Source: Acidobacteriaceae bacterium (lineage in GTDB: Bacteria; Acidobacteriota; Terriglobia; Terriglobales; Acidobacteriaceae). From it: a DNA stretch of 64,000 nt. Location of the stretch: the NCBI GenBank assembly GCA_003132405.1, contig PKXQ01000138.1, positions 88,379 through 152,378 on the forward strand, read 5' to 3'. The notes under the pieces are model-generated. The model saw only the letters and a program-made list of their open reading frames with translations, searched no databases and was not told the DNA's origin. Below, in pieces: positions 25,054-26,734 of this stretch. How positions within the stretch are numbered: the first letter of the stretch is position 1; every line of letters begins with the position of its first letter. The position numbers and the translations under genes are program-made.

Positions 25054-25653
25054 TTGCCCATGCCGCCGGAAAACCTGACGATTGCGACCACCGGCGCCAG
25101 CGGATCGATTTTTCTCAAACACTTTCTACTTGCCGCCGAACGCGACCCTCGGGTAAAGACCCTAAACTTCATCGCCTCCGACAGCGGCCTGCGCGTCATG
25201 GCCGAAGAACTTGGCATAGAAGGCCGCTCTGATCTCCTACGTCAAATCATCGGCGCGCCCTCGGCGAAGATTCAGCAACAGGCGAACAACGATATCGGCG
25301 CCAACGTGGCCAGCGGGTCGTATCCCGCTGATGCCATGGTCGTCATTCCGTGCAGCGTTGGCACCCTCGGCCGCATCGCCAACGGCATCGCTTCGCGCCT
25401 CCTCGAACGCGCCGCCGATGTCACTCTCAAAGAGCGCCGGCCTCTCGTCCTATGCGTCCGCGAGACGCCGTTGAACAAAATTCACTTGCGCAACATGTCG
25501 CTTGCCGCTGACGCCGGTGCGACCATCTTCCCGCTCATCCCGACGTTTTATAACCACCCGCCAACCCTGGAGGCCATGGCGCAGGAATTCGCCAACCGCG
25601 TCCTCGCGCATTTAGGACTGCCCCAAGAAAATGCATACCGATGGAAGGGGTGA
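25054..25653 (+). CDS. ubiX: UbiX-family flavin prenyltransferase
   Basis: TIATTGASGSIF, ADAMVVIPCSVGTLGRIANGIASRLLERAADVTLKERRPLVLCVRETPLNKIHLRNM. Confidence 0.88.
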   Translation: MPMPPENLTIATTGASGSIFLKHFLLAAERDPRVKTLNFIASDSGLRVMAEELGIEGRSDLLRQIIGAPSAKIQQQANNDIGANVASGSYPADAMVVIPCSVGTLGRIANGIASRLLERAADVTLKERRPLVLCVRETPLNKIHLRNMSLAADAGATIFPLIPTFYNHPPTLEAMAQEFANRVLAHLGLPQENAYRWKG

Positions 25654-25727
25654 GCCCAGTTGCCGGTTGTCAGTTCTCAGTTCGAGAAAAATCAGGAAAG
25701 GCCGCGCTGAGCTCCCAAGGTTTTACT

Positions 25728-25769
25728 GAGACCTGAGACCTAAGACCTGAGACCTGAGACCTGACAACT
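25728..25769. repeat. 7-bp tandem repeat (GAGACCT), 5-6 units
   Basis: gagacct gagacct aagacct gagacct gagacct gacaact; ends in CTGACAAC, complementary to GTTGTCAG at about 25667. Confidence 0.9.
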
Positions 25770-25985
25770 CCTCTCTCAAAGTCTAGGGAACGGGAAGTAA
25801 CGAAGGTAGGTATCTGGCGGGCATGTACTGCGAGTGCCAGCGATCTTGACACGTGCAGTTTACGGGCGCGGATTTCCCGCTGGTTTCAGATTCTCAGCGT
25901 CTACCCTGACGCCTCGCACTGAGAACTGAGAACCGGGAAGTGAGAACAGTGCTATTGATTCTCGCGGTACGCCACCTCAGTGCTG

Positions 25986-26013
25986 TTGACTCAGCCCTCT
26001 CTTTTTTTGTAAT
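25986..26013 (+). promoter_or_regulatory. Sigma70-like promoter TTGACT-N16-TGTAAT
   Basis: TTGACT at 25986-25991, TGTAAT at 26008-26013. Confidence 0.6.
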
Positions 26014-26043
26014 CTGCGCTTACACCGGAAAGGAGGTGGTCGG

Positions 26044-26103
26044 ATGATAAGTTCTGATTCACATAGTAGAAATACCAGACCAGGTGAGGTGGCTGAGTCT
26101 TAG
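26044..26103 (+). CDS. 19-aa small ORF MISSDSHSRNTRPGEVAES*
   Basis: Preceded by AAAGGAGGTGG, near-perfect anti-SD complement, with ~5 nt spacing. Confidence 0.5.
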   Translation: MISSDSHSRNTRPGEVAES

Positions 26104-26280
26104 GGCGGTTGCTCTAAGCGGAGTTCTCGAGGAACCTTTGGTCGGGGAAATCGGGGACAATCTCTCGCAAACAATCCGTGAATTTGGGCTGATCCGCCGG
26201 TCACAAGTCGTGCCCGGCACCGGAACGAGCGAGGGGCCACGAGAGTGACCACCTCAGTCAATCCCAAACAGTCCACCGGC

Positions 26281-26312
26281 CAGCCCGCAGGCTGAAAAGC
26301 TTGCGGGCTGTT
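26281..26312 (+). terminator. Rho-independent terminator
   Basis: CAGCCCGCA g GCT GAAA AGC t TGCGGGCTG followed by TTCTCTTT. Confidence 0.85.
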
Positions 26313-26368
26313 CTCTTTCCACGTGGCAGGTCATTGGGAAAAGCAAATTCCTTTGCCGTGTGCGAATC

Positions 26369-26692
26369 TCACTCCCGCTCGGACGGAGCGAAAAACACAA
26401 TCAATTCCAACTCTTCCCTTATATCGTAGAAGCGATGCTCCACCCGAGCCTCGACGAAAATCACCGAGCCTGCCCGCACCTCGTAATGTTCCGATCCATT
26501 CTGCATCCGCGCAACTCCGCGCACGACGTAGTACATCTCATCTTCGCGGTGGGGTTTCTGCGGATCAGTTCCGCCCTTGGGCAATGCATAAACGCCAGCA
26601 CTCATCGCCGGAACGCGCAAAAACTCGAAGTAAGCTTTGCCTTTTCTCGCACGTTGACGAGAGAGATCGTCGATGTGAAATAGCTGGGGCAT
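26369..26692 (-). CDS. Cupin-domain protein
   Basis: PHREDEMYYVVRGVARMQNGSEHYEVRAGSVIFVEARVEHRFYDI. Confidence 0.87.
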   Translation of the reverse strand: MPQLFHIDDLSRQRARKGKAYFEFLRVPAMSAGVYALPKGGTDPQKPHREDEMYYVVRGVARMQNGSEHYEVRAGSVIFVEARVEHRFYDIREELELIVFFAPSERE

Positions 26693-26734
26693 ACCGAGAA
26701 CTGAGAACCGGGAACTAAAAACTAAAATTGCGCA

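Follow-up and report, generated by a model that had tools for sequence, protein, structure and literature searches.

In the window (the 64,000-nucleotide stretch of Acidobacteriaceae DNA that was analysed), sequence comparison predicts at positions 26020-26319 an RNA gene, about 300 bases long, that stands alone, is present in a single copy and belongs to a wide family in which the Rfam entry Ms_IGR-5 is included. Its parts are collected in Table 1. The gene downstream of the RNA encodes a cupin and lies on the opposite strand (26369-26692). A gene for a UbiX-type flavoprotein (25054-25653) adjoins the RNA as well; it stands on the same strand as the RNA in the window's genus and is convergent with it in the locus L040, where the UbiX-type neighbourhood is kept and the orientation changed. 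Degenerate 7-nt repeats of the types CTGAGAC and GAGAACT lie on either side of the RNA gene, at 25660-25765, 25917-25935 and 26696-26716, and similar ones accompany it in other genomes of the same genus (loci L006, L012, L013 and L015); these repeats are far above chance.

Table 1. Predicted parts of the RNA gene, in window coordinates
Feature	Position	Strand	Remarks
Promoter, sigma70-like, TTGACT-N16-TGTAAT	25986..26013	+	TTGACT 25986-25991, TGTAAT 26008-26013; hexamers conserved in the genus
SD1, AAAGGAGGTGGTC, 13 nt	26029..26041	+	near-perfect complement of the 16S rRNA 3' end; (near-)invariant across phyla
Mini-ORF, MISSDSHSRNTRPGEVAES*, 19 codons	26044..26103	+	ATG at 26044; N-terminal part hypervariable and AT-rich; end fixed as ...EVxxx-stop
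GAGGTG, internal SD-like hexamer	26086..26091	+	constant 9 nt ahead of the stop codon
P1 5' strand, GGTGGCTG	26088..26095	+	within the mini-ORF; pairs with the linker; covarying pair types at position 5
Alternative local hairpin, CTTAGGGC-GGTT-GCTCTAAG	26099..26118	+	spans the stop codon; in MFE and centroid folds
P2 5' arm	26103..26115	+	its first base is the G of the TAG stop codon; 6/7 modelled pairs with both-sided changes across phyla
P2 3' arm	26242..26254	+	L001 duplex -18.1 kcal/mol; competes with SD1 for 26247-26254
Anti-SD segment, GACCACCTC	26247..26255	+	complementary to 26033-26041; lineage-specific
Conserved linker, CAATCCCAAACAGTCCACCGG	26259..26279	+	from sequence comparison
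P1 3' strand, CAGTCCACC	26269..26277	+	T26272 bulged; just before the terminator
Intrinsic terminator	26281..26319	+	13-bp stem (26281-26310) and T-rich tail TTCTCTTT; conserved in the genus

An initial annotation had described an orphan transcription unit with promoter-like boxes, an SD, a 19-codon ORF and a terminator, and all of these are present by reading of the sequence and conserved in the genus. A generic promoter scanner found no promoter and placed the two boxes below its threshold, so that the promoter is supported by conservation and not by a match to the consensus. In genomes of the same order the 16S rRNA ends in ...GGCTGGATCACCTCCTTT, and its tail, GGATCACCTCCTTT, pairs with the SD region GAAAGGAGGTGGTC over 14 nt with a single G-U (13-14 nt for SD1). 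The 9-bp match between the SD and the 3' part of the transcript, which had been placed at 26248-26256, is real and lies one base earlier, at 26247-26255. The repeat CCACCTCAGT does occur at both places reported for it (25972-25981 and 26249-26258); the genus does not keep the upstream copy, which is therefore probably incidental.

Membership in a wider Ms_IGR-5-like family

At gathering scores no Rfam family was reached anywhere in the window. A known riboswitch, 6S, SRP or RNase P, no signature of which the initial annotation had recognised, is thereby rejected, and so is a tmRNA: ARAGORN found neither tRNA nor tmRNA in the window, and an ordinary tmRNA lies on another contig of the genome. 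Once the thresholds are relaxed, Ms_IGR-5 (RF02471) gives an end-to-end alignment with 26022-26316 at 23.2 bits (E=0.0024, 501 bases searched), which misses the gathering threshold of 45 bits. The same Rfam model, run over 297 genomes of Acidobacteriota, gave 23 matches at E<=0.1, two of which exceed the Rfam cut-off; scores in other Acidobacteriota reach 50 bits, and actinobacterial members found through the ORF pattern described below score 86-105 bits and so are Ms_IGR-5 by Rfam's threshold.

Because our first covariance model, R1, contained Terriglobia, which makes its match to the window partly circular, a second model, R2, was built from 21 sequences with no Terriglobia among them. With R2 the window RNA is recovered at E=4.7e-8 when the window is searched and, as the single match of the whole genome, at E=4.2e-6; of 41 related genomes, the sister family included, 34 give a match at E<=0.1. 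R2 laid the 3' half of the window RNA onto an earlier segment (26145-26167) and its score derives mainly from the 5' half, for which reason the homology of the 3' linker was argued from separate inspection of the motifs. The window RNA also has the extended SD with an in-frame mini-ORF, the stop three codons after GAG-GTG, the helix P1 between the ORF end and the linker CAGnnnACC, and the stem P2 starting at the stop codon. Since other Acidobacteriota pass the RF02471 threshold and R2 finds the window, comparison of the sequences indicates that the RNA is a divergent member of a wider Ms_IGR-5-like family and not an orphan, nor a member of RF02471 as curated. Orphan status has thus to be given up, homology to an Rfam family being the very result that the annotation had named as refuting it; the covariance-model search of Acidobacteriota that it had proposed did find family members, with a conserved ORF, beyond the genus.

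What the window RNA shares with Ms_IGR-5 is AAGGAGGTGGTC near the 5' end, GTGAGGTGGCTG some 30-45 nt later, a stem, the linker AATnCC..CAGnCACC and a terminator; it differs in that it scores below the cut-off, its mini-ORF is longer, the insertion in its P2 region is much longer, and it has the anti-SD segment. Rfam files Ms_IGR-5 as an sRNA of Actinobacteria, whereas the actinobacterial members seen here carry an ORF too, for instance LYSNRTREVAVR*. Transcription of Ms_IGR-5 has been reported in S. lividans (PMC8079986) and S. avermitilis (PMC8780764), and ribosome footprints on it in M. abscessus and M. smegmatis (PMC4974804), with the caution from the same paper that RNPs and many ncRNAs also yield footprints. 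The open-licence literature that we searched yielded no report of an Ms_IGR-5 function, of an ORF in it or of members outside Actinobacteria, and a search of the same literature for the peptide or SD strings in paper text gave nothing relevant.

At the DNA level the homologues are close relatives: BLAST of 25985-26315 against 41 related whole genomes found one in 22, nearly all of the same genus. A DNA pattern made of SD1, a gap and YGAGGTGSCTGD reaches much further, with at least 119 stretches in GTDB species genomes, and the matches listed fall in Actinomycetota, Acidobacteriota, Sumerlaeota, Nitrospinae (Nitrospinota), Spirochaetia, 'Deltaproteobacteria' and Eisenbacteria. By these pattern matches the predicted family is present in at least seven phyla. 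Matches in a planctomycete (L092) and in Zixibacteria (L138) were cut off or had no start codon and were not counted as phyla, and two matches on viral contigs, both apparently inside a long coding sequence, were taken as chance. With model R1, and under strict filters that may miss real members, the RNA was found in 91 of 297 genomes across the phylum Acidobacteriota (E<=0.01, where the weakest may be chance), in 90 of 199 sampled genomes of Actinomycetota (45%, E<=0.001), and in 89 of 100 genomes of the window's own family (67 of the 73 good ones), mostly as one strong match each. The RNA is, by these model matches, near-universal and single-copy in that family. Two sister-family loci, L255 (genome G025, contig 2) and L256 (G028, contig 11), have the RNA about 3 kb and about 1.6 kb from the tmRNA gene, unlike the window genome, in which the two are not close.

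The mini-ORF and the evidence for its translation

An alignment of the genus keeps the promoter hexamers, ACACCGGAAAGGAGGTGGTCGGATG, AGACCAGGTGAGGTGGCTGAG.CTTAG, GTGACC[AG]CCTCAGTCAATCCC, and the linker with the terminator, while the middle of the ORF varies and its differences in length are multiples of three. The peptides of the genus follow M[TIQ]SS[DE]...RPGEVAE[STA]* with few departures. In L006 (G008, contig 27) an ATC replaces the ATG, the sole such case in the genus; it lies near a contig end and may be an error or an unusual start.

The frame is kept well beyond the genus. The search pattern carried no stop-codon requirement, and a stop stands exactly three codons past GAG-GTG in all 118 untruncated pattern matches among those listed (103 TAG, 9 TGA and 6 TAA). 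An in-frame ATG, GTG or TTG at SD spacing, followed by an open frame, was found in 94 of 96 distinct N-terminal regions among the matches listed, against 10.6 +- 3.1 in shuffled regions and 1 and 9 in the other two frames. The ending of EV, three codons and a stop is likewise kept in 54/54 loci found by the model and in a further 10/10 from the sister family and class. Mini-ORFs of the family have about 11-22 codons, and those between the start and the conserved end vary freely and have 35% GC in hosts that are mostly GC-rich (matches listed). Together this suggests that the mini-ORF is under constraint of frame, start, SD and stop, and that it is translated.

Pairings of the ORF end

In the helix P1, GGUG-NCUG at the end of the ORF pairs with CAGnnnACC in the linker, and 169 of 184 sequences can form the full set of eight pairs when a single bulge is allowed. 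Its mean of 7.64 pairs (7.36 +- 0.06 when shuffled) was reached by none of 2000 shuffles and its number of distinct pair combinations lies above all 2000, counts that come from related sequences and are not independent events. At position 5 the pair occurs as G-U, G-C, A-U, C-G and U-A, and the C-G type is found in Acidobacteriota and in the Eisenbacterium L139. This position is the first base of the codon after EV, so that the encoded amino acid changes (Ala, Thr, Pro, Ser) while the base stays paired (G-C/U, A-U, C-G, U-A); it is therefore the RNA pair, and not the residue, that is conserved. The second stem, P2, joins the region of the stop codon to the stretch right before the linker. Its own arms pair at -16.6 kcal/mol compared with -12.2 for foreign arms, 6 of its 7 pairs show changes on both sides (alignment A4), and its covariation score of 0.249 (0.126 +- 0.017 shuffled) was equalled in 0/500 shuffles and falls when the partners are slid against each other. 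By this covariation the universal pairing of the family is predicted to be that of the ORF end (26088-26095) with the pre-terminator linker (26269-26277), together with a stem that starts at the stop codon.

These pairings bear on whether the locus is simply a small-protein gene, whose product would be a peptide of 11-22 residues ending in EV[A/T/P/S]xx and whose fold would only tune translation or stability. The strong constraint on frame, start, SD and stop speaks for such a gene, as does the conservation of residues before EV with synonymous variation: Arg-Thr stands there in Actinomycetota with the codons AGG/CGG and ACN (matches listed), and the ORF ends in WT[CS]EVAE[AG] in the sister family. 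Residue conservation just before EV exceeds what a pure RNA account needs. The N-terminal half, however, varies freely in sequence and length even in one genus, the first base of the penultimate codon is variable (Arg/Ser, Ser/Thr/Ala; matches listed), and the best conserved codons are those of the P1 strand, whose changes follow base pairing. We consider a plain small-protein gene rather unlikely, and the peptide itself is probably secondary.

The initial annotation had proposed a different helix, in which the 3' part of the transcript could sequester the SD. SD1 can pair with 26247-26255 over 9 bp at about -17 kcal/mol, and the helix, well beyond shuffles, stands in the window's genus and in several related Terriglobia (z about -2.5, and lower than -1.5 for 92% of 39 sequences). 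Almost no variation occurs within the genus. In Actinomycetota and most other lineages the pairing is absent or weak (z -1.06 in Actinomycetota and -0.7 in others), and the helix was rejected as a universal element and is kept here as a feature of certain lineages. Many Terriglobia with an altered SD, such as GGAGGATGATC, do not keep the anti-SD, and some Blastocatellia have an unrelated one (GAAAGGAGGTG with CACCTTCTTTC). Because 26247-26255 also serves as the P2 3' arm, masking of the SD and formation of P2 are alternatives in the window.

SD1 of 13-14 nt and the internal GAGGUG could also make the RNA a high-affinity ligand of the 30S subunit or of the 16S 3' end, acting as a sponge, a reserve or a regulator of free ribosomes, with translation of the mini-ORF recycling the RNA. 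The near-perfect complementarity to the anti-SD, kept across phyla, would fit such a role, and so would the near-universal single copy in the family and the mycobacterial footprints. We nevertheless hold it to be improbable, as it leaves both the pairing of the ORF end with the linker and the fixing of the stop at the foot of P2 unexplained, and some Terriglobia have an interrupted SD like the one just given.

That the motifs merely came together by chance between two genes might be argued from the shortness of the individual motifs, from the empty promoter scan and from the fold of the window RNA, which by itself reaches a z of only -2.1. This reading is refuted by the comparative data, in which conservation spans phyla and comes with covariation and with constraint on the frame, and its probability is close to nil. 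The earlier alternative of a small-peptide mRNA with translational control or a novel structured RNA thus resolves into both at once, ORF and covarying fold being conserved far beyond the genus.

Proposed gating of the fold by the ribosome

With confidence just short of even, we propose that this stand-alone transcript is a ribosome-gated regulatory RNA: it would be translated, ribosomes on its mini-ORF would gate how it folds, and its output would most likely be in trans. Ribosomes would load constitutively at SD1. A ribosome on the last codons would cover the ORF side of P1 and the base of P2, and translation would in this way keep the linker free; without ribosomes, P1 and P2 would close. 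Translation and the fold of P1 and P2 exclude each other, since a ribosome at the terminal codons necessarily covers both, and we infer that this mutual exclusion is used as a switch. GAGGUG lies 6 nt upstream of the P-site codon of the terminating ribosome, which is the spacing of an SD to its start and is fixed in all members, and the hexamer may hold the terminating 30S at the stop codon (30S parking). In Terriglobia the P2 3' arm, once freed, could pair over SD1, which would give feedback on initiation.

The output might consist in recognition of the linker or the RNA by another RNA or a protein, or in an altered stability of the RNA. It would most likely be in trans, because the downstream gene is not conserved and the neighbours differ between lineages. 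A cis-acting leader or attenuator for an adjacent gene would be in keeping with the short ORF, the alternative pairings and the terminator, which resemble those of leader-peptide attenuators, and in one group of Terriglobia (L043, L191, L197, L201, L204, L207 and others) a ThiG-like gene does follow the RNA on its own strand, about 270 nt further on. In the window, on the other hand, the downstream cupin gene is on the other strand, and neighbours change from a UbiX-type flavoprotein and a cupin here to a ThiG-like protein elsewhere (a clustering that is noisy, includes shadow ORFs of GC-rich DNA and was used qualitatively only). Gene orientation and changing neighbours strongly disfavour a cis-regulatory leader, which is very improbable.

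The ribosome-gated reading can be extended, tentatively and with some doubt, to an ancient RNA class of several phyla that would report the status of translation: ribosomes on the mini-ORF would decide codon by codon whether the universal helix of ORF end and linker and the stop-codon stem form, the two states would act in trans and the peptide would be a by-product. What is new here is the suggestion, from comparative data, that an Ms_IGR-5-like family extends past Actinobacteria, carries an ORF and has a coding end that joins the fold. Ms_IGR-5 would then be one branch of a single-copy RNA that one acidobacterial family carries in most of its genomes, that occurs in nearly half of the Actinomycetota sampled and that extends to at least five further phyla, and a covariance model is available for annotating the family.

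Among known systems, tmRNA (RF00023) shares with the window RNA a short ORF inside a structured RNA, and the window RNA is unlike it in being without a tRNA-like domain or a tag. Leader-peptide attenuators and uORFs, such as the uORF reported in PMC12121999, likewise combine a short ORF with mutually exclusive pairings that are open to the choice of the ribosome. The window RNA differs from them in that the terminator follows right after the linker, the neighbours are not conserved and no gene is co-transcribed downstream, where an attenuator would have its regulated gene in the same direction and the window has the cupin gene on the opposite strand. If the fold is indeed gated by the ribosome, the RNA would be a stand-alone sensor of translation, unlike attenuators, which serve one neighbouring gene. 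Dual-function sRNAs that encode peptides, such as SgrS/SgrT and RNAIII, resemble it as short structured transcripts that have a real ORF and that start and end at a promoter and a terminator of their own. For translation of that ORF the family offers a strong comparative signature, with footprints in the mycobacterial homologues only. What sets the window RNA apart from these sRNAs is that the end of its ORF supplies one side of the conserved helix and that the next stem has its foot in the stop codon.
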